From Sphingopyxis sp. USTB-05 (GTDB taxonomy: Bacteria > Pseudomonadota > Alphaproteobacteria > Sphingomonadales > Sphingomonadaceae), in NCBI RefSeq assembly GCF_023822045.1, contig NZ_CP084712.1:1612001-1676000 (forward strand): DNA of 64,000 bases, given 5' to 3'. Shown here piece after piece: positions 42,445 through 51,164 of the stretch. How positions within the stretch are numbered: the first letter of the stretch is position 1; the number at the start of each line of letters is the position of its first letter. The notes under the pieces are model-generated. The model was not told where the DNA came from and searched no databases. It worked only from the letters and a program-made list of their open reading frames with translations. A program made the translations under genes and the position numbers.

Positions 42445-42576
42445 CTTTCGCCATCGACGCAACTCGCCGCATCGCCGGGAACTGTCCCATTGTCGGAGAG
42501 TTAGCTAGTCAAATGGGGAGAAACGGGTTGCACAGCCATATCTCGCAAGCCACAAGTGTGCATCGGTGGCCAGCAG

Positions 42577-44946
42577 ATGAAAAAATCTGACATTTCGCGT
42601 GTATCGTCAGGCCGCCGACCCGTGCGGATGCGGCCGCTCTTGATCGGTGCCTGCTCCTTTCTTTGTCTCGCTTGGGCGGGCGCCGCGCAGGCGCAGCAGG
42701 TCGAACCGCCGCAGGTCGTCCGGACACTCGACGCGAACAAGGCAGACCCGATCGCTGCTCCGTCGCCGCCTCCGCCCGATGTGGTCCTGCCTGAGGTCGC
42801 CCCGATCATCGAGGATGACGAGTTCGAAAAGGCGATTCCGCCGATCAGCGCCGAGGACGATGCGGAACTCGACCGTCCGCTCGAATCGATCGCCGATTTT
42901 GAAAAACGTCAGGCTGCCGAGGCGGCGAAACGCCGCAAACCGGCTGGCGAGGACAGCGCCGATGCGACCGTCGAAACGCAGCCGCCCAAGGTTGACGGCG
43001 TACCGGTTCCCGCGCTCGCCGACGGCGATGCGGTGGAGGCGATCGGCGACGCGCCGATCACCGACAGCGAGCTAGCGGCACCGCTGCCTCCGCTCGAAAA
43101 TTTCGACGTAGAGCCGGTGCAGTTTGCGGAAGCCGAGGATGACAAGGGCAATGTCGAGATCGCCTATTCGGTAAAAGTGAATGGGCTCGACGCAGCCGAC
43201 GATAGTACCGACGTCGATCTCGCCGACCTGTTCGGCGATTTGTCGGCGCTTTATGACGGCGACGGAAAGGCCGACAATGCGGCGATGATCCGCGCGCGCC
43301 TGACCGCAGATGGCGAACTGATGCAGCGCATCCTTGCGTCCGAAGGCTATTATGACGCCGTCGTCGACACGCGCATCGACCGCGGCGAACGCGAGGAAGG
43401 GCAGGAGGGTCAGGAAGGCCAGCAAACGCAGCAAGGCCGGCGTCGGTCGATCACCGCCGTGATCGATGTAAAACCGGGCAAGCGCTATACGCTGGCCGAT
43501 ATCATCATTAATGCCGGGCCGACGGTTCCGCCGACCCTGATCGCCGACAATTTTCCGCTCGCCGTCGGCGAACCGATCGTCGCACAGCGCATTCAGGGCG
43601 CCGAAGCTGCGATCGCGCTCAAGCTGCCACAGGAAGGCTATCCCTTCGCCAAGGTCGGACAGCGCGACATATTGCTCGATGGTGCTACGGGCGACGGCGT
43701 CTACACCTTGCCCGTCGATATTGGGAAACGGTCGCGCTTCGGCGGGATCGAGACGACGGGCGACCTTGCTTTCGATGCCGAGCATGTCGCGGTCCTCGCA
43801 CGTTTCAAGCGCGGTGACCTCTACGATAGCCGTATGGTCGACGATCTTCGACAGGCGTTGGTTGCCACCGGCTTGTTCGCCACCGTCGCCGCTGAGCCAC
43901 AGCCGACCGGTGAGAGCGCGGGCGACGACACCGAATATGTGACGATGCTGGTGACCCAGCAGGCGGGGCCGCCGCGCACTCTCGCCGCCAGCGCCGGCTA
44001 CGGGACGGGCGAGGGGATCAGGCTTGAAGGTAGCTGGACTCATCGCAACCTGTTCCCGCCCGAAGGTGCGCTGACCTTCCGCGGGGTATTGGGCACGCAG
44101 GAGCAGGGGATCGGGGCAACGCTTCGCCGTTCGAACGCGGGCCGCCGAGATCGTACCATGGAGCTCGTCACCGAGGTCACGCGCAGCAACTATGATGCGT
44201 TCAACGCAATCACGGGCCGCGTCGGCGTGCGCGTCAGCTATGATTCGACGCCGATCTGGCAGAAGAAATTTACCTATGCCTATGGTGCCGAACTGATCGC
44301 AACACGCGAGGATGATTATGATTTCAACCAGGGTGCGCGGTCGTATGATTTCTACACGATCCTCGGCCTGACCGGGCAAGTCGGGATGGACCGGACCGAC
44401 AGCCTGCTAAACCCGACCAAGGGCTTTCGTATTACATCGCTGATCCAGCCCGAAGGCTCGCTTGCGGGTCGCTTCTCGCCTTATGCGCGGCTGCGGACCG
44501 ACGTCAGCGGCTATTATCCCGTGACCGACAGCATCGTCGTGGCCGGGCGCGTGCGCGTTGGCTCGATCCTCGGGGCTGCGCGCGAGCGGTTGGCGCCGTC
44601 GCGGCGCTTCTATGCCGGCGGCGGCGGGTCGGTGCGCGGATTCGGCTATCAGGAACTTGGGCCGAAGGATCCGAACAACGATCCGATCGGCGGCCGCAGC
44701 GTCGCCGAGGCGGCGTTCGAGACGCGCTATCGCTTTGGCAATTTCGGCGTTGTCGGCTTCGTCGACGCCGGGCAAGTTTATCGCTCGTCGGCGCCGACTT
44801 TCCAAAATCTGCGCTTCGGTGCCGGGATCGGTGCGCGCTATTACACGAACTTCGGTCCGATGCGCTTCGACGTCGCGACCCCGATCGGGCGCAAGCCCGG
44901 TGAAGCGCGGGTCAGCGTCTATGTTTCGATAGGGCAGGCCTTTTGA
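42577..44946 (+). CDS. tamA: TamA-like Omp85 outer-membrane assembly protein
   Basis: An outer-membrane beta barrel of about 789 residues that works with TamB to insert outer-membrane proteins or move phospholipids. A signal peptide ends near GAAQAQQ. The N-terminal part is acidic and Pro-rich, followed by POTRA-like domains (from VNGLDAADDSTDVDLADLFG). Between POTRAs there is a Gln/Glu-rich insert of about 20 residues (EEGQEGQEGQQTQQGRRR). The Omp85 barrel carries RRFYAGGGGSVRGFGYQELG, and the chain ends SIGQAF with terminal Phe. The ATG at 42577 is one of three possible starts. The stop overlaps the tamB start as TGATG. Confidence 0.93.
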   Translation: MKKSDISRVSSGRRPVRMRPLLIGACSFLCLAWAGAAQAQQVEPPQVVRTLDANKADPIAAPSPPPPDVVLPEVAPIIEDDEFEKAIPPISAEDDAELDRPLESIADFEKRQAAEAAKRRKPAGEDSADATVETQPPKVDGVPVPALADGDAVEAIGDAPITDSELAAPLPPLENFDVEPVQFAEAEDDKGNVEIAYSVKVNGLDAADDSTDVDLADLFGDLSALYDGDGKADNAAMIRARLTADGELMQRILASEGYYDAVVDTRIDRGEREEGQEGQEGQQTQQGRRRSITAVIDVKPGKRYTLADIIINAGPTVPPTLIADNFPLAVGEPIVAQRIQGAEAAIALKLPQEGYPFAKVGQRDILLDGATGDGVYTLPVDIGKRSRFGGIETTGDLAFDAEHVAVLARFKRGDLYDSRMVDDLRQALVATGLFATVAAEPQPTGESAGDDTEYVTMLVTQQAGPPRTLAASAGYGTGEGIRLEGSWTHRNLFPPEGALTFRGVLGTQEQGIGATLRRSNAGRRDRTMELVTEVTRSNYDAFNAITGRVGVRVSYDSTPIWQKKFTYAYGAELIATREDDYDFNQGARSYDFYTILGLTGQVGMDRTDSLLNPTKGFRITSLIQPEGSLAGRFSPYARLRTDVSGYYPVTDSIVVAGRVRVGSILGAARERLAPSRRFYAGGGGSVRGFGYQELGPKDPNNDPIGGRSVAEAAFETRYRFGNFGVVGFVDAGQVYRSSAPTFQNLRFGAGIGARYYTNFGPMRFDVATPIGRKPGEARVSVYVSIGQAF

Positions 44947-47900
44947 TGGCTGACGACGCCGCCTTCGCCGAAGACGAAACCGTGCCCGCAAAGGCATCGC
45001 GTTCGTGGCCGCTCACTATATTGCGTTGGATCGGCCTGAGCCTGCTCGGGCTGGTGCTGCTGTCCGCGTTATTCCTTGTCGGGCTCAATAGCGATGCGGG
45101 GCGGCGTTTCGTTGTCACCCAGATCGAGAAATATGAATTCGAAAACGGGATGAAGATCGGCATCGGCCGGCTCGACGGGTCGCTTTATGGCCAGATGGTC
45201 ATCCGCAATCTTACGCTGTCCGATCCGAAGGGCGTTTTCCTTGCGTCGCCCGAGGTCAAGGTCGACTGGCGGCCGATCCGCTATCTCGCGAACCATGTCG
45301 ACATTCGCTCGGCAACCGCGGCGACGATGACGATGCGCAAGCTGCCCGAGTTCAAAGTCGTTCCCGACACCGGCGAACCGTTGCTGCCCGACCTCGACAT
45401 CGACGTCGGGCTGTTGCGCGTCGACCGCTTCATCTTTGAGCCCCTCGTTGCGGGTGAGCGGCAGGTTGCCAAATTGAACGGCAAGATCGCGATCGCCGAC
45501 CGCCGCGCGCAGGTCACGGCCAATGCCGAGACGATTGCCGGTGGGGGCGGGGAGGGCGATGCGTTGAAACTTGTACTCGACGCGGTGCCCGAGGCGAACC
45601 GGCTTGCGGTGACGCTCGACATGACGGCGCCCAAGGGCGGCGTGCTCGCGGCAATGGGTGGGTTCAAGGAAACGCTCACCGCGAAGCTCGACGGCCGCGG
45701 TGATTGGAAAGCCTGGAACGGCAATCTGACCGCGAACCTCGGCGCTGCGCCGCTCGCGCGCGTCGCGCTGACGGGGCGCGATGGCACTTTTACGGCAAAG
45801 GGGAAGGCGCAAGCATCGCGCCTGATGGCCGCAGGGCCGGTCGTTGAGTTGCTGGGGAGCGAAACGGCGATCGATCTTACGGCACGCCTCAACGACCGTA
45901 AGGCCGCGATAGACGGGCGGCTGTCGTCCGACGCGGCACAACTCGGCATCAGCGGCGGAATCGACCTTGGCACCAGTCGCTACGAGGGTCTGAAACTCGC
46001 CGCCAATATTCTCCGCCCGAGCGCGATTGCGCCAGCGGTGCGAGCCAATGGACTACGGGCTACAGCGACGCTCGATGGCGCCTTCGCGCATCCGACGGTC
46101 GATTATCAGGCGAATGCCAACAGTCTCGCGGTGAATGACATCATCGTCGAGGGGATCGTGCTTGCTGGCAAGGCGCGCGTCGATGCCGACCAGATCGTCA
46201 TTCCGGTAGCGGGACGCGCCGCGCGCATCCGCGGCCTCGATACGGTTGCGGGCGGGACGTTGGTCCAGGTGCGGCTCGACGGCGACCTCGCGTACAGCAA
46301 TGGCCGCATCCTCAGCGACAATCTGCGTCTGCGCTCGCCGCGCATCGACGCCAAGGCAATCATCATCGCCGATCTCAACAAAGGCTTTTACACCGGCGCG
46401 ATCGACGGGCGGATTAACGATTATCGGATCGAAAGCGTCGGCATCTTCGACATCGATACCGACGCTGATCTTAAGACCGCGCCGCGCGGCGGGTTCGAGA
46501 TCGTCGGAAACGTTCGCGCCCGCTCGACCCGGCTGTTCAATTCGGGCGTGCGCGATTTCCTCGGCGGCAGTGCGACGGCTTCTAGCGCGGTGCGTTATGG
46601 CACCGACGGCATTATCCGCTTCTCGGGCCTCCGCCTGTCGGCGCCGCGGCTGCGGGTAACGGGCGGGCAGGGGAGTTATGCGCCGAACGGCCAGATACGC
46701 CTGACCGCACAGGCCCATTCAACCGACTATGGTCCTGTCGGGGTTCAGCTTGCGGGGACGATCACCGACCCGCGCGCGGTTGTAACGGCTGCACGTCCCG
46801 GCCTTGGGATCGGGCTCGCCAATCTGGTGGCCAAGATCAACGGCGCACCGAACGGCTACCGGCTCGCGGCGACCGGTGAAACCGATTATGGCCCACTGTC
46901 CGCTGACGTCGTGCTGCTGACAGCCAAGGGGCCGCTGACGATCGATGTCGAGCGCGGCGACCTGTCGGGGATCGGCTTCAACGGCAGACTGGTAAAAAGC
47001 GATGCGGGGCCCTTCGTCGGTCAGCTCAACGCTTCGGGGCAGGGGCTTGGCGGCCTCGTCCGGCTGACCGCCGCCGGAAAATATCAGGCGGCTGCGATCA
47101 ACGTCCGCGCGAACGACGTCGTGCTCCCCGGCGCAGCGAAGCTCGCGGTCGGGTCGGCGATCGTCGATGCCGACGTTACCCTTTACGACACGCCGCATGT
47201 GGTCGCCGACATCCAGATCGCCGACACGCAGATTCGCGAATATGACATTGCCGTCGGGCGCGTGAAGATCGACTATCGCGACGGCGCGGGGCGCGCGCAG
47301 GCGCTGGTCGAAGGAACGAGCGGTGTCCCGTTCCGCATCGCAGCGAACGCCGACCTTCAACCCAAACTCTGGCGCGCGTCCGTGCAGGGCCGGGCGACAG
47401 GGATCAATTTCCGGACCACGTCGCCCGCACGCATTATTCCGGGCCCCGACGGTTATGAATTGCTACCAACGAACGTCAGTCTGGGGCGCGGCAGCAGCGC
47501 GCGTGTCGCCGGCCGCTTCGGCGATGGGATCATGATTCAGAGCCGCCTCGAACGCGTCAATATGGCCATCCTCAATGCCGTCTATCCCGACATGGGGCTG
47601 GGCGGCCGCGCAACGGGCAGCCTCGATTTCGAACAGGCGAATTCCGACAGCTTCCCGCGTGCCGACGCGCGACTGACGATCACCGATTTCACGCGTACGA
47701 CCGCGGCGTCGGTCAGCCAGCCGGTCGATGTCAATTTCGCAGGCAAGCTCCTCGTCGACGGTGGCGAAGCGCGCGCGGTGATGCGCAAGCGCGGCAGCGT
47801 GATCGGGCGTCTGCAGGCGTCGCTGCGTCCACTGGGTGCCGGTGCGGGGACCTGGACCGAACGTTTGATGGCAGCGCCGCTCGGCGGGGGCATCCGCTAC

Positions 47901-49184
47901 AACGGACCCGCCGACACGCTCTATTCCTTCTTTGGCCCGGCGACGCAGCATGTGTCGGGACCGATTGCGGTCGCCGCTGATTTTAGCTGTAGCGTTTCCG
48001 ATCCATGCCTGGAGGGCGTCGTTCGCGGCAAGGATATGGTCTATGAAAACCAGACCTATGGCACACGGTTGACCAATATGGTCGTGAACGGCCGCTTCAC
48101 GGGCAACCGGCTCGAGATCGAGCAGCTTACCGCGACGGCTGGCGACGGCACGGTGCAGGCGAAAGGCTTTATCAGCCTCGCGTCGGCCGACGGCTATCCG
48201 ATGAATATTTCGGCGACGCTCGATAATGCGCGGTTGGCCAAGAGCGAGAATATCGCCGCACGTGCGACGGGTAATCTGACGCTTGAGAAGGTCGCGGGAC
48301 AGACAGCGCTGCTGTCGGGCAGCCTGCGCCTTCCTGAAACACGCTATCGCATCATTCGTGAGGGCGCGGCGCAGGTTCCAGTGCTCACCGGGGTTCGGCG
48401 CAAGCCGCCTGCGGGCCGCCAGCGGATCAGCGGCGATGGGCTCGCGGCGGTCGGCGGCAGCCTGTTCGACCTCATCCGCCTCGATATTGCATTGAAAGCC
48501 CCTGACGAAATTTATGTCAGCGGCATGGGGCTCGAATCCGAGTGGAAGGCCGATGTGGTGCTGCGCGGTACGACGCAGGATCCACGCGTTACGGGTGAGA
48601 TCGAACTGGTGCGCGGTACGCTGGGTTTCGCGGGCCGCTCGTTCGAATTGCAGGAAGGTCGGGTGACCTTCCCGACGGGCGAAGCCTTCGATCCCGCGAT
48701 CCGCCTGCTCGCCAGCGACACGATTGAAACCGTGACGATCAGCATCAGCGTCACTGGGCGCGCGAGCAATCCGCAGATCGCCTTCTCGAGCGTCCCGGGC
48801 TTGCCGCAGGACGAGATCGTCTCGCGCATCCTGTTTGGCGATTCGATCACCACCCTGTCGCCGCTGCAGGCGGTGCAACTCGCATCGTCGCTCAACACGC
48901 TCAGCGGCACGGGTGGCGGATTGAGCCCGCTTGGATCGCTTCAATCGGCCACGGGGATCGATCGACTGCGCGTGCTCGGCCCCGACGATACCGTCGGGCG
49001 CGGTGCGGCGTTGGCCGCCGGCCAATATATCACCAAAGATATCTATCTGGAGGTGATCACCGACGCGCGCGGCTATACCGCGACGCAGCTCGAGGTTAGC
49101 CTGACTCCGGCGCTGTCGCTGCTCAGCCAAGCGGGCGGATCGGGCCAGTCGAACCTCAGCATCCGTTATCGCAAGGATTATTGA
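44946..49184 (+). CDS. tamB: TamB-like translocation and assembly protein (AsmA/DUF490 family)
   Basis: A 1412-residue protein anchored in the inner membrane by one N-terminal helix (ILRWIGLSLLGLVLLSALFL) and spanning the periplasm as a long beta groove. Residues after the anchor form repeated beta segments, and the C-terminal DUF490 region includes RGTLGFAGRSFELQEGRVTF and LPQDEIVSRILFGDSITTLS, ending LSIRYRKDY. It partners with TamA in anterograde phospholipid or outer-membrane protein transport. Its start lies in TGATG of the tamA stop and its stop in TGATG of the next gene's start, so three genes are coupled in order. Confidence 0.95.
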   Translation: MADDAAFAEDETVPAKASRSWPLTILRWIGLSLLGLVLLSALFLVGLNSDAGRRFVVTQIEKYEFENGMKIGIGRLDGSLYGQMVIRNLTLSDPKGVFLASPEVKVDWRPIRYLANHVDIRSATAATMTMRKLPEFKVVPDTGEPLLPDLDIDVGLLRVDRFIFEPLVAGERQVAKLNGKIAIADRRAQVTANAETIAGGGGEGDALKLVLDAVPEANRLAVTLDMTAPKGGVLAAMGGFKETLTAKLDGRGDWKAWNGNLTANLGAAPLARVALTGRDGTFTAKGKAQASRLMAAGPVVELLGSETAIDLTARLNDRKAAIDGRLSSDAAQLGISGGIDLGTSRYEGLKLAANILRPSAIAPAVRANGLRATATLDGAFAHPTVDYQANANSLAVNDIIVEGIVLAGKARVDADQIVIPVAGRAARIRGLDTVAGGTLVQVRLDGDLAYSNGRILSDNLRLRSPRIDAKAIIIADLNKGFYTGAIDGRINDYRIESVGIFDIDTDADLKTAPRGGFEIVGNVRARSTRLFNSGVRDFLGGSATASSAVRYGTDGIIRFSGLRLSAPRLRVTGGQGSYAPNGQIRLTAQAHSTDYGPVGVQLAGTITDPRAVVTAARPGLGIGLANLVAKINGAPNGYRLAATGETDYGPLSADVVLLTAKGPLTIDVERGDLSGIGFNGRLVKSDAGPFVGQLNASGQGLGGLVRLTAAGKYQAAAINVRANDVVLPGAAKLAVGSAIVDADVTLYDTPHVVADIQIADTQIREYDIAVGRVKIDYRDGAGRAQALVEGTSGVPFRIAANADLQPKLWRASVQGRATGINFRTTSPARIIPGPDGYELLPTNVSLGRGSSARVAGRFGDGIMIQSRLERVNMAILNAVYPDMGLGGRATGSLDFEQANSDSFPRADARLTITDFTRTTAASVSQPVDVNFAGKLLVDGGEARAVMRKRGSVIGRLQASLRPLGAGAGTWTERLMAAPLGGGIRYNGPADTLYSFFGPATQHVSGPIAVAADFSCSVSDPCLEGVVRGKDMVYENQTYGTRLTNMVVNGRFTGNRLEIEQLTATAGDGTVQAKGFISLASADGYPMNISATLDNARLAKSENIAARATGNLTLEKVAGQTALLSGSLRLPETRYRIIREGAAQVPVLTGVRRKPPAGRQRISGDGLAAVGGSLFDLIRLDIALKAPDEIYVSGMGLESEWKADVVLRGTTQDPRVTGEIELVRGTLGFAGRSFELQEGRVTFPTGEAFDPAIRLLASDTIETVTISISVTGRASNPQIAFSSVPGLPQDEIVSRILFGDSITTLSPLQAVQLASSLNTLSGTGGGLSPLGSLQSATGIDRLRVLGPDDTVGRGAALAAGQYITKDIYLEVITDARGYTATQLEVSLTPALSLLSQAGGSGQSNLSIRYRKDY

Positions 49185-49405
49185 TGCGCGCCGCCGCCCT
49201 GCTTGTTCCGCTGTTGCTGCTCGCGGCATGCAAGGACGAGCCGCGTTTCGAGGAACGATACGACAAGGCGGCGAAAGAGATTGAGGCGCGCGCAAAGGCG
49301 ATGGATGCCGACATCGCCAAGTCCGACACTGCCGCACGGGCCGCATCGGAAAACTTGCAACCAGCGGCCAAGCCGTCTAACGCGCCCACGTCATCTGGGG
49401 AGTAG
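49184..49405 (+). CDS. Small lipoprotein coupled to tamAB
   Basis: A 73-residue protein starting MRAAALLVPLLLLAACKDEP, with lipobox LLAAC (Cys at 17). The mature part is highly charged and helical (RYDKAAKEIEARAKAMDADI) with a flexible Ala/Pro/Ser tail. No family recognised. Its start overlaps the tamB stop (TGATG), and its last codons (TCA TCT GGG GAG TAG) form the 5' conserved core of the manganese riboswitch. The gene and the riboswitch therefore constrain each other. It is small enough to be missed in automated annotation, but its signal and coupling are convincing. Confidence 0.75.
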   Translation: MRAAALLVPLLLLAACKDEPRFEERYDKAAKEIEARAKAMDADIAKSDTAARAASENLQPAAKPSNAPTSSGE

Positions 49406-49500
49406 CCAGCCGTCCTTCGGGGCGGGCCACCGTGTCAACATACTCGGCCGAGAGGTCGTGGTGCGGTGGAAGCGGGAGACCGCTTGGGCGAGACCAATGG
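49391..49500 (+). ncRNA. yybP-ykoY manganese riboswitch
   Basis: The conserved elements are present in order: GGGGAGTAGCC (49397-49407), GTCAACATACTCGG near 49434-49447, and GGCGAGACC near 49487-49495. The closing stem pairs TCATCTGG with CCAATGG through one bulged C. This is the Mn2+-sensing aptamer that turns on exporter genes; the gene downstream is a GDT1-type exporter, as expected. The 5' core overlaps the stop codon of the upstream lipoprotein gene. Confidence 0.9.
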
Positions 49501-49513
49501 CATCGACCTTCGT

Positions 49514-49569
49514 CCGGGCCGGGCGGCGGGTTTGATGTCTATTGGAATCGCGAAGCCGCTCGGCCCCGG
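49514..49569 (+). promoter_or_regulatory. Hairpin sequestering the ribosome site of the GDT1-type exporter
   Basis: CCGGGCCGGGCGGC (49514-49527) can pair with GCCGCTCGGCCCCGG (49555-49569) over 14 positions with one bulged C and one G-U. The 3' arm covers the first two G of the GGAG ribosome site (49568-49571), 8 bases before the ATG. It is a plausible expression platform acting on translation, as there is no U-run. Mechanism inferred. Confidence 0.6.
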
Positions 49570-49578
49570 AGTTTGTTC

Positions 49579-50151
49579 ATGGAAGCCCTGTTAACCTCGA
49601 CCGCTGTCGTCGCGCTCGCCGAAATCGGCGACAAGACGCAGTTGCTTGCGATCCTGCTCGCGACGCGGTTCAACCGCCCGGTGCCGATCATCTTCGGCAT
49701 ATTGGTCGCGACGCTCGCCAATCATGCGCTCGCGGCGCTGCTGGGCGCATCGGCCGCGGCCTTCCTCGACAGTCCGGTCTTCCGCTACGCCATCGGGCTT
49801 TCCTTTGTCGCGATGGCGGCGTGGACGCTGATCCCCGACAAGTTCGAGGACGATGAGGCACCGAAGCCGCGCTTCGGGGCGTTCCTGACGACGCTCGTCG
49901 CCTTCTTCCTCGTCGAGATGGGCGACAAGACGCAGGTCGCGACGATCGCGCTCGGCGCGCAATATCACAACGTTCTTCTGGTTACCGCGGGCACCACGCT
50001 CGGCATGATGATCGCCAACGTCCCCGCAATCTTCCTCGGCCACGAACTGCTCAAGCGCGTCGATTTGGCCAAGGTTCGCATGGTCGCCGCGACGCTGTTC
50101 CTCGTTATCGGCCTTTGGGTGCTGGTGCAGACTGCGGGTTTGCTCGGTTAG
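49579..50151 (+). CDS. GDT1/TMEM165 (UPF0016) family cation exporter
   Basis: A 190-residue inner-membrane protein with six helices in two repeats. Each repeat has the EXGDKT motif: EIGDKTQLLAI (Glu15-Thr20) and EMGDKTQVATI (Glu113-Thr118). The family exports Mn2+ (and Ca2+) from the cytosol. The ATG at 49579 follows a GGAG site and a regulatory leader with an Mn2+ riboswitch, which supports manganese as the substrate. A longer frame upstream reads through the riboswitch and was rejected. Its stop overlaps the galE stop by 4 bp on the other strand. Confidence 0.93.
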   Translation: MEALLTSTAVVALAEIGDKTQLLAILLATRFNRPVPIIFGILVATLANHALAALLGASAAAFLDSPVFRYAIGLSFVAMAAWTLIPDKFEDDEAPKPRFGAFLTTLVAFFLVEMGDKTQVATIALGAQYHNVLLVTAGTTLGMMIANVPAIFLGHELLKRVDLAKVRMVAATLFLVIGLWVLVQTAGLLG

Positions 50152-51164
50152 CCGGCATTTCGCGTCGCGAGCATTCGCTCGAAACGCCAGCTCGATGAAC
50201 ACATTGCGTCGAGGTCGCGGTTCGCGCTCCAGCCCAGTTCGCGCGCGGCGCGATCGGGGCTGGCAAAGCAGCTCGCGACATCGCCGTCGCGGCGCGGCGC
50301 GATGCGATAGGGGATGCTGACCCCGTTCACGCGCTCGAACGCTTCGACCATGTCGAGCACCGAATAGCCCTGTCCGGTGCCGAGGTTCCAGATCGACAGC
50401 GGCTGGTCGACCTTGCCGATCGCATCGAGCGCGGCGACGTGTCCGTCGGCGAGGTCCACGACATGGATATAGTCGCGTACGCCGGTGCCGTCGGGCGTGT
50501 CGTAATCATTGCCGAACACCGACAGTTCGGCGAGCCGCCCGGCCGCGACGCGGCTGACGAATGGCATCAGATTGTTGGGGGTGCCGTTCGGATTCTCGCC
50601 GATCAGCCCGCTGTCGTGCGCGCCGACCGGATTGAAATAGCGCAGGATCGCGATCCGCCACTCGGGATCGGCGGCGGCGACATCGGCCAGCATTTCCTCG
50701 ATCATCAGCTTGGTGCGGCCATAAGGATTGGTCGCAGAGGTCGGATGATTTTCGTCGAGCGGCAGATATTGCGGCTGGCCGTAGACAGTGGCGCTCGATG
50801 AGAAGACGAGCGTCTTCGTGCCGCCGTCGGCCATCGCTTCCAGCAGCGACAATGTGCCGCGAACATTGTTGTCGTAATATTTCATCGGCTCGGTGACCGA
50901 TTCGCCGACCGCTTTGAGCCCGGCGAAATGGATCACCGCCTCGATCGCGTGATCGCGGATGACCTTGCGCAGCGCGTCGCCGTCGCGAATGTCGCCGGTA
51001 ACGAGCGGGACCGTCTGGCCGGTGATCGCTTCGAGCCGCTCCATGACCGAGGGATCGCTGTTCGACAGATTGTCAAAGCATACCACATGATGGCCGGCCG
51101 CCACGAGCGGCGCCGCAACATGGCTGCCGATATATCCCGCGCCACCGGTCAGTAGAATATTCAT
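50148..51164 (-). CDS. galE: UDP-glucose 4-epimerase
   Basis: Interconverts UDP-glucose and UDP-galactose in the cytosol, supplying polysaccharide precursors. MNILLTGGAGYIGSHVAAPL is the NAD motif; SSSATVYGQPQYLPLDENHP and the catalytic TNPYGRTKLMIEEML are canonical, and HVVDLADGHVAALDA is also typical. 338 residues, start ATG at 51164. The longer in-frame upstream region is not family-like. It faces the sigF-type gene across about 220 bp that hold a probable ECF promoter. Confidence 0.94.
   Translation of the reverse strand: MNILLTGGAGYIGSHVAAPLVAAGHHVVCFDNLSNSDPSVMERLEAITGQTVPLVTGDIRDGDALRKVIRDHAIEAVIHFAGLKAVGESVTEPMKYYDNNVRGTLSLLEAMADGGTKTLVFSSSATVYGQPQYLPLDENHPTSATNPYGRTKLMIEEMLADVAAADPEWRIAILRYFNPVGAHDSGLIGENPNGTPNNLMPFVSRVAAGRLAELSVFGNDYDTPDGTGVRDYIHVVDLADGHVAALDAIGKVDQPLSIWNLGTGQGYSVLDMVEAFERVNGVSIPYRIAPRRDGDVASCFASPDRAARELGWSANRDLDAMCSSSWRFERMLATRNAG

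Follow-up and report, generated by a model that had tools for sequence, protein, structure and literature searches.

A manganese riboswitch core that carries the stop codon of the preceding lipoprotein gene: a recurrent gene-RNA overprint in Sphingopyxis and a second bacterial genus

Results

A lipoprotein gene ends in the core of a manganese riboswitch

In a 64,000-nucleotide stretch of the Sphingopyxis sp. USTB-05 genome (referred to below as the window), a small gene for a predicted lipoprotein ends inside a Mn2+ riboswitch, and its stop codon is the UAG of the riboswitch core. The riboswitch machinery is ordinary, but it is set in an unusual and recurrent overprint of a gene and an RNA. 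The overlap is common to 56 of the 65 Sphingopyxis loci in which the lipoprotein gene lies directly 5' of the riboswitch (hereafter overlap loci), and is thus not the chance property of one genome. Pfam matches and the ORF list give the gene order as tamA, tamB, the 73-codon lipoprotein gene and a GDT1-family gene (Table 1), the ATG of the lipoprotein gene overlapping the tamB stop by one base (TGATG).

Table 1. Positions of genes, promoter-like elements and RNA elements in the window
Feature	Position	Strand	Evidence or remark
tamA-like gene (start codon uncertain)	42556..44946	+	Omp85 domain, Pfam PF01103 (E 7.5e-43); ORF list
tamB	44943..49184	+	Pfam PF04357 (E 1.3e-56)
73-codon lipoprotein gene	49184..49405	+	stop is the aptamer core UAG; dN/dS 0.17
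-35-like TTGCAA (TTG is lipoprotein codon -16)	49355..49360	+	TTG in 56/56 overlap loci
-10-like TAACGC, spacer 17, predicted start ~49390	49378..49383	+	TA fixed in 56/56; matrix from other genera
Predicted Mn2+ riboswitch aptamer, four-way junction, helices P1.1 to P4	49390..49501	+	RF00080, fold, pair counts (54 loci)
P1.1 5' strand, in lipoprotein codons TCA TCT GGG	49390..49398	+	invariant in 54/54 aligned loci
L1 core GGGGAGUAG with lipoprotein stop UAG 49403-49405	49397..49405	+	
L3 core ACAUACU	49438..49444	+	sequence, RF00080
P1.1 3' strand (CCAAUGGC)	49494..49501	+	fold, pair counts
Proposed anti-P1.1 hairpin, metal-free state (49494-49516 with 49520-49545)	49494..49545	+	pair counts
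Proposed 12-bp platform hairpin leaving the ribosome site free (49516-49527 with 49555-49566)	49516..49566	+	pair counts
Shine-Dalgarno-like GGAG of GDT1	49568..49571	+	7 bases 5' of ATG
GDT1/UPF0016 family gene	49579..50151	+	Pfam PF01169 (E 1.5e-41), two matched stretches

The Rfam model of the Mn riboswitch (RF00080, the yybP-ykoY class) matches positions 49384-49561 of the + strand with 48.8 bits, above the gathering score of 45 (E 1.3e-11), in agreement with the first-pass annotation of this DNA, which had placed such a riboswitch at 49391..49500, a range correct to one base at each end. The 117-base RNA from 49390 folds into the canonical four-way junction (z -2.1), its closing helix, P1.1 in the nomenclature of PMC6754395, pairing 49390-49398 with 49494-49501. 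The aptamer alignment covered 54 of the 65 loci, 11 having been removed by hand against redundancy. Standard pairs made up 98.8-100% in every aptamer helix; both-sided pair changes were found in P2, P3, P3.1 and P4, and P1.1 was nearly unvarying. From its sequence, the aptamer is predicted to bind Mn2+ and to activate the gene. This gene belongs to a family of Mn homeostasis (GDT1, PF01169), and its translation carries EIGDKTQ and EMGDKTQ, i.e., two E.GDKTQ motifs, in addition to the GDT1 domain. Based on the family and the riboswitch, the product is predicted to be an MneA-like Mn2+ exporter. The open frame of GDT1 reaches back to 49432 or further, within the aptamer (window positions 49432-50151), and a frame-shifted lipoprotein might thus fuse to GDT1.

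In DNA form the L1 core reads GGGGAGTAG (49397-49405), with the TAG at 49403-49405, exactly as first noticed. The same DNA therefore serves as coding sequence and as RNA sensor. Given the size of its footprint, a ribosome at the termination site (49403-49405) would sit over L1 and the 5' strand of P1.1, again as had been proposed. Core variants were also observed: three loci, L054 (genome G097) and two others, carry GGGGAGTAA in place of GGGGAGTAG, and the L3 core is ACATGCT instead of ACATACT in L052, L068, L072, L073, L004 and L016.

The small open reading frame is a conserved gene

The lipoprotein ORF (49184-49405) reads MRAAALLVPLLLLAACKDEP...PTSSGE*. The stretch LLLLAAC was recognized by eye, and its LAAC motif we take to be lipobox-like; a pattern search for the conserved Cys matched 64 of the 69 riboswitch loci, and in L047 the Cys was found by eye. 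Searches of Pfam and NCBIfam matched no family, as would be expected if the small ORF were no gene and hence there were no overlap. This explanation is highly improbable, because 336 homologues were found at E <= 0.001, both the lipobox-like Cys and the tamB-coupled start are conserved across Sphingopyxis, and the median dN/dS of 0.17 (30-codon block; 1577 pairs with dS 0.3-1.5) indicates purifying selection. The SSGE terminus is present in 119 of the 120 homologues nearest to the query (best 120 of 336), while the linker 5' of the promoter is much more variable than the tail. In genome G056, a Sphingopyxis with no RF00080 match under stricter filters, the lipoprotein tail is ...PDPALSGR, not SSGE. 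At L028, in the draft genome G008, a different open frame, not tamB, precedes the lipoprotein gene; TamB of this genome lies at a contig end (L360), and rearrangement or misassembly is possible.

A promoter-like signal within the lipoprotein gene

The last 17 lipoprotein codons contain a promoter-like sequence, TTGCAA-N17-TAACGC, which the first-pass annotation had missed. Its normal spacing predicts a transcript start at about 49390, which is the first base of the aptamer and of P1.1. The TTG lies 42 bases and the TA 19 bases 5' of the core in all 56 overlap loci, and a layout equal to within about 1 base precedes the aptamer in Sphingobium, Sphingomonas, Novosphingobium, Hyphomonas and other genera, in which the neighbour gene ends earlier or sits on the opposite strand. 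Since the layout recurs at near-equal distance where there is no overlap, the riboswitch RNA most likely starts within the lipoprotein gene and is untranslated.

For scoring of this signal, a promoter matrix was derived from 59 loci belonging to nine other genera, 30 of the loci being from Sphingobium. In 51 of the 56 overlap loci and in 8 of the 9 non-overlap loci, none of the 288 upstream placements scored as high as the fixed place. The mean score at the expected place was 9.7 in the overlap loci, the lowest non-overlap locus scored -1.3, and L016, with -27, was an exception. The promoter-like match is kept in L056, where an unrelated gene stands in front. A strict scan of 49100-50300 for sigma-70 promoters of the E. 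coli type found none; promoters of this bacterial class are probably looser than those of the E. coli type.

If transcription begins at the first base of the aptamer, no translated lipoprotein should be present on the main riboswitch transcript, and the clash between ribosome and sensor would concern read-through transcripts only. The suggestion, made from the sequence at first reading, that translation disturbs or times the folding of the sensor thus holds as a possibility on read-through transcripts, but not as the normal mode, given the conserved inner signal. In full, this idea is one of functional coupling, in which P1.1 and L1 are kept open on read-through mRNA by ribosomes that complete the lipoprotein, and tamAB translation, as a second input, times or overrides Mn2+ sensing. 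We consider such coupling unlikely, in part because the conserved promoter-like signal would start the riboswitch RNA 3' of the lipoprotein start codon; other observations bearing on it are given below.

The protein tail is probably fixed by the promoter-like signal and the RNA

All 56 overlap loci end in the same five codons, TCA TCT GGG GAG TAG, even though TCA and TCT together account for only 5 of the 177 Ser codons in five genes of the window. Upstream, codon -16 is TTG in every overlap locus and codon -9 is always NCT, encoding Ser in 35, Ala in 12, Thr in 7 and Pro in 2. The promoter letters are fixed while the encoded amino acids vary, indicating, at the level of codons, that promoter and RNA dictate the lipoprotein tail, and not vice versa.

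Gain and loss of the overlap in Sphingopyxis

Among 72 Sphingopyxis genomes searched, including the one studied here, 68 had a riboswitch match, giving 69 loci. The overlap was counted over the 65 loci with the lipoprotein gene directly in front; loci of other genera (L002, L032, L054 and L059) and those lacking the lipoprotein gene (L004, L014, L016 and L056) were left out. The gene stops at the core UAG in 56 of the 65 and before the promoter in 9, and runs through the aptamer in none. In these nine non-overlap loci the gene stops at least 49 bases 5' of the core, upstream of the -35. The comparison between genomes thus supports the overlap as a conserved state, while at nine loci the lipoprotein gene does end well before the riboswitch. 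On balance the original observation is confirmed, and is stronger than it was stated. Such a wide conservation of a stop inside L1 counts in favour of functional coupling. The mean RF00080 score was 41.1 bits in the nine non-overlap loci and 48.2 bits in the 56 overlap loci (Mann-Whitney p 1.5e-4, uncorrected for relatedness).

A quick tree of TamB plus GDT1 was made for 63 loci, omitting L028 and L049, in which no TamB frame was recovered. Novosphingobium, the outgroup, has the same gene order without the overlap. The state of overlap changes at least five times on this tree, four of the changes being forced by well-supported branches, and the history is best read as one gain followed by about four losses. 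Where the overlap was lost in Sphingopyxis, the promoter and the aptamer were retained. These losses argue against functional coupling, without which the switch must be able to work. A single gain followed by several losses is rather the pattern of neutral overprinting, in which a gene that has lost its stop runs on to the first in-frame stop and the core UAG simply happens to be present. We regard neutral overprinting as somewhat likely to be the whole account of the overlap; it is compatible with the explanation preferred below.

A separate origin with an unrelated gene

In g94, an alphaproteobacterial genus of another family, 71 of the 72 fetched loci could be located, and in 18 of them a PAP2 phosphatase gene (assigned by Pfam PF01569 for the gene of L115) stands in front of the riboswitch. 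The core UAG is the stop of twelve of these 18 genes, whose tails read, for example, PAVIGE, and all twelve have TTG as codon -16; five stop in the -10-like box and one stops earlier. The sequences indicate that the overlap of gene and riboswitch arose separately in g94, with an unrelated gene. The distribution of stops, as if each gene had taken the first one available, is in agreement with neutral overprinting, while the appearance of the same layout in a second gene family could also be taken as a sign of functional coupling. In L117, L251, L252, L394 and L397, the TAA or TAG within the -10-like box is the stop of the PAP2 gene, a promoter element thus doubling as a stop codon.

A wider survey was made of class-, phylum- and g94-level loci, with 11 weaker matches left out; the core was located in 160 of 162 (all but L080 and L265). 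By a GC3 test, which recognizes 37 of the 56 true lipoproteins, coding into the core was clear for the PAP2 loci only. Six other loci were flagged by this test (L118, L250, L255, L280, L283 and L293), their peptides being judged un-gene-like; L293, which passed a stricter coding filter as well, may still be a case. No convincing gene crossing the aptamer in another frame was detected among 350 loci, by a filter that is blind to most short genes and passes only L028 of the 56 overlap lipoproteins; two coding-like open frames extending past the aptamer, in L133 and L333, are both doubtful. The lack of other-frame genes would count against neutral overprinting, but with only two independent families, both in frame 0, this bias towards one frame does not reach significance (chance about 1 in 9).

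Related genera use the aptamer without the overlap, which speaks against functional coupling: at 77 other-genus loci with the exact aptamer pattern, 0 of 32 called same-strand neighbours end on the core, by a gene caller that overlooks short genes, among them the lipoprotein gene of L182, L184 and L185. The Sphingopyxis-like loci L129, L182, L184, L185 and L229 are not included in the 77.

Two proposed competing helices downstream of the aptamer

The 3' strand of P1.1 may also pair downstream. The anti-P1.1 hairpin so proposed showed 96.3% standard pairs over the 54 loci, with both-sided change at 5 of 23 pairs, and compared with letter shuffles the pairing was significant (p <= 0.05) in 25 of 54 other-genus and 22 of 65 Sphingopyxis loci. 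The 12-bp platform hairpin, which ends just 5' of the GDT1 GGAG, showed 99.2% standard pairs over the same 54 loci, with both-sided change at 2 of 12 pairs. Pairing of UCUGGGG, from P1.1 and L1, with the ribosome site reached p <= 0.05 in 15 of 56 other-genus and 18 of 65 Sphingopyxis loci; this pairing involves letters that are conserved for other reasons. A ribosome covering UCUGGGG would cover a part of both the sensor and this possible block of the ribosome site, a coincidence that would suit functional coupling.

The free fold of the whole leader was no better than shuffles (z -0.96); free energies thus give no verdict on a platform competing with P1.1, which pair counts and complementarity favour. 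Between 49100 and 50300 two weak terminator-like sites were found, against 1.3 in shuffles, and one of them lies within the platform (49515-49534). Functional coupling draws some support from the absence of a clear terminator in this interval. As the platform holds only this weak site, the switch looks translational; the same site would nevertheless allow a degree of transcriptional control. The competition between the two downstream helices fits a translational ON switch that operates by strand competition.

Discussion

The explanation that we consider probable is a standard Mn2+ riboswitch with its own inner promoter, overprinted by the end of the lipoprotein gene. The riboswitch would control a GDT1-type Mn exporter from that promoter. 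In Sphingopyxis the lipoprotein gene would have grown, or lost its stop, so that it crosses the promoter and the transcript start, continues along the 5' strand of P1.1 and ends on the UAG carried by the aptamer core. Transcripts from the inner promoter would begin at the first base of P1.1, allowing the sensor to fold with no ribosome on top. In the presence of Mn2+, P1.1 would form and the downstream hairpin would leave the GDT1 ribosome site free (ON); in its absence, the 3' strand of P1.1 would pair downstream and the ribosome site could be covered (OFF, translational), perhaps by the UCUGGGG that P1.1 and L1 release. The switch would be uncoupled only on mRNA reading through from tamAB, where a ribosome at the lipoprotein stop would cover P1.1 and L1. 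The transcript start, the direction of switching and the effect of the ribosome in this scheme are what we infer, while the overlap, its conservation and losses, the promoter-like signal, the aptamer and the recurrence are read from the sequences themselves. For this genus, differential RNA-seq has been published for S. granuli TFA (PMC7083833).

The locus shares with other yybP-ykoY Mn2+ riboswitches (RF00080) the aptamer fold, the L1 and L3 cores and a downstream Mn exporter, here a predicted one. It differs in that the preceding gene has its last codons and its stop in the 5' strand of P1.1 and in the L1 core, in the promoter-like signal within that gene, and in a platform with only a weak terminator-like site. 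In the Xanthomonas member of the class, as described in part of PMC6754395, a downstream strand competes for the switch helix P1.1, as proposed for the present locus, and the platform there is a terminator. The E. coli mntP riboswitch is, according to the portion of PMC11647493 available, a translational ON switch that senses Mn and precedes a Mn exporter, acting together with Rho termination; the locus described here would be of the same kind, and that portion makes no mention of an overlap with the upstream gene. Vibrio MneA, a Mn exporter of the UPF0016 family encoded behind a yybP-ykoY riboswitch, shares both exporter family and riboswitch class with this locus, and an upstream-gene overlap is likewise unmentioned in the available portion of PMC13274385. 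In Mycobacterium tuberculosis, the leader of B12 riboswitches itself contains a translated uORF, which is required for translation of ppe2 (PMC11260477, in part). Common to both systems is that a translated ORF in the leader of a riboswitch may affect the regulated gene; at the present locus, in contrast, it is a structural gene from upstream whose end reaches into the aptamer, and most of that gene falls outside the predicted riboswitch transcript. No description of a riboswitch core in which an upstream gene ends was found in titles and abstract openings among the matches listed, a search that subscription journals lay mostly outside, nor in the available portions of PMC7815308 and PMC11260477.

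Internal promoters occur at the 3' ends of upstream genes. Unlike those cases, the promoter, the start site and the structured core of an RNA are here all read as codons. Few RNAs are as constrained as a riboswitch core, and yet in 56 Sphingopyxis loci, as well as with an unrelated gene in a second genus, this core doubles as protein-coding sequence and stop codon. For annotators, this means that C-terminal tails such as SSGE and VIGE reflect the RNA rather than the protein. The loci in which the overlap is present, was lost or was never gained, with the same promoter and aptamer, constitute a natural experiment on the effect of a terminating ribosome on a nearby RNA sensor. In a bolder reading, slightly less likely in our estimate than functional coupling itself, the core UAG is a portable stop repeatedly taken over by unrelated genes, with the terminating ribosome as a second input on read-through mRNA. 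If this were the case, the exporter would be made regardless of Mn2+ whenever the TAM operon is highly translated.
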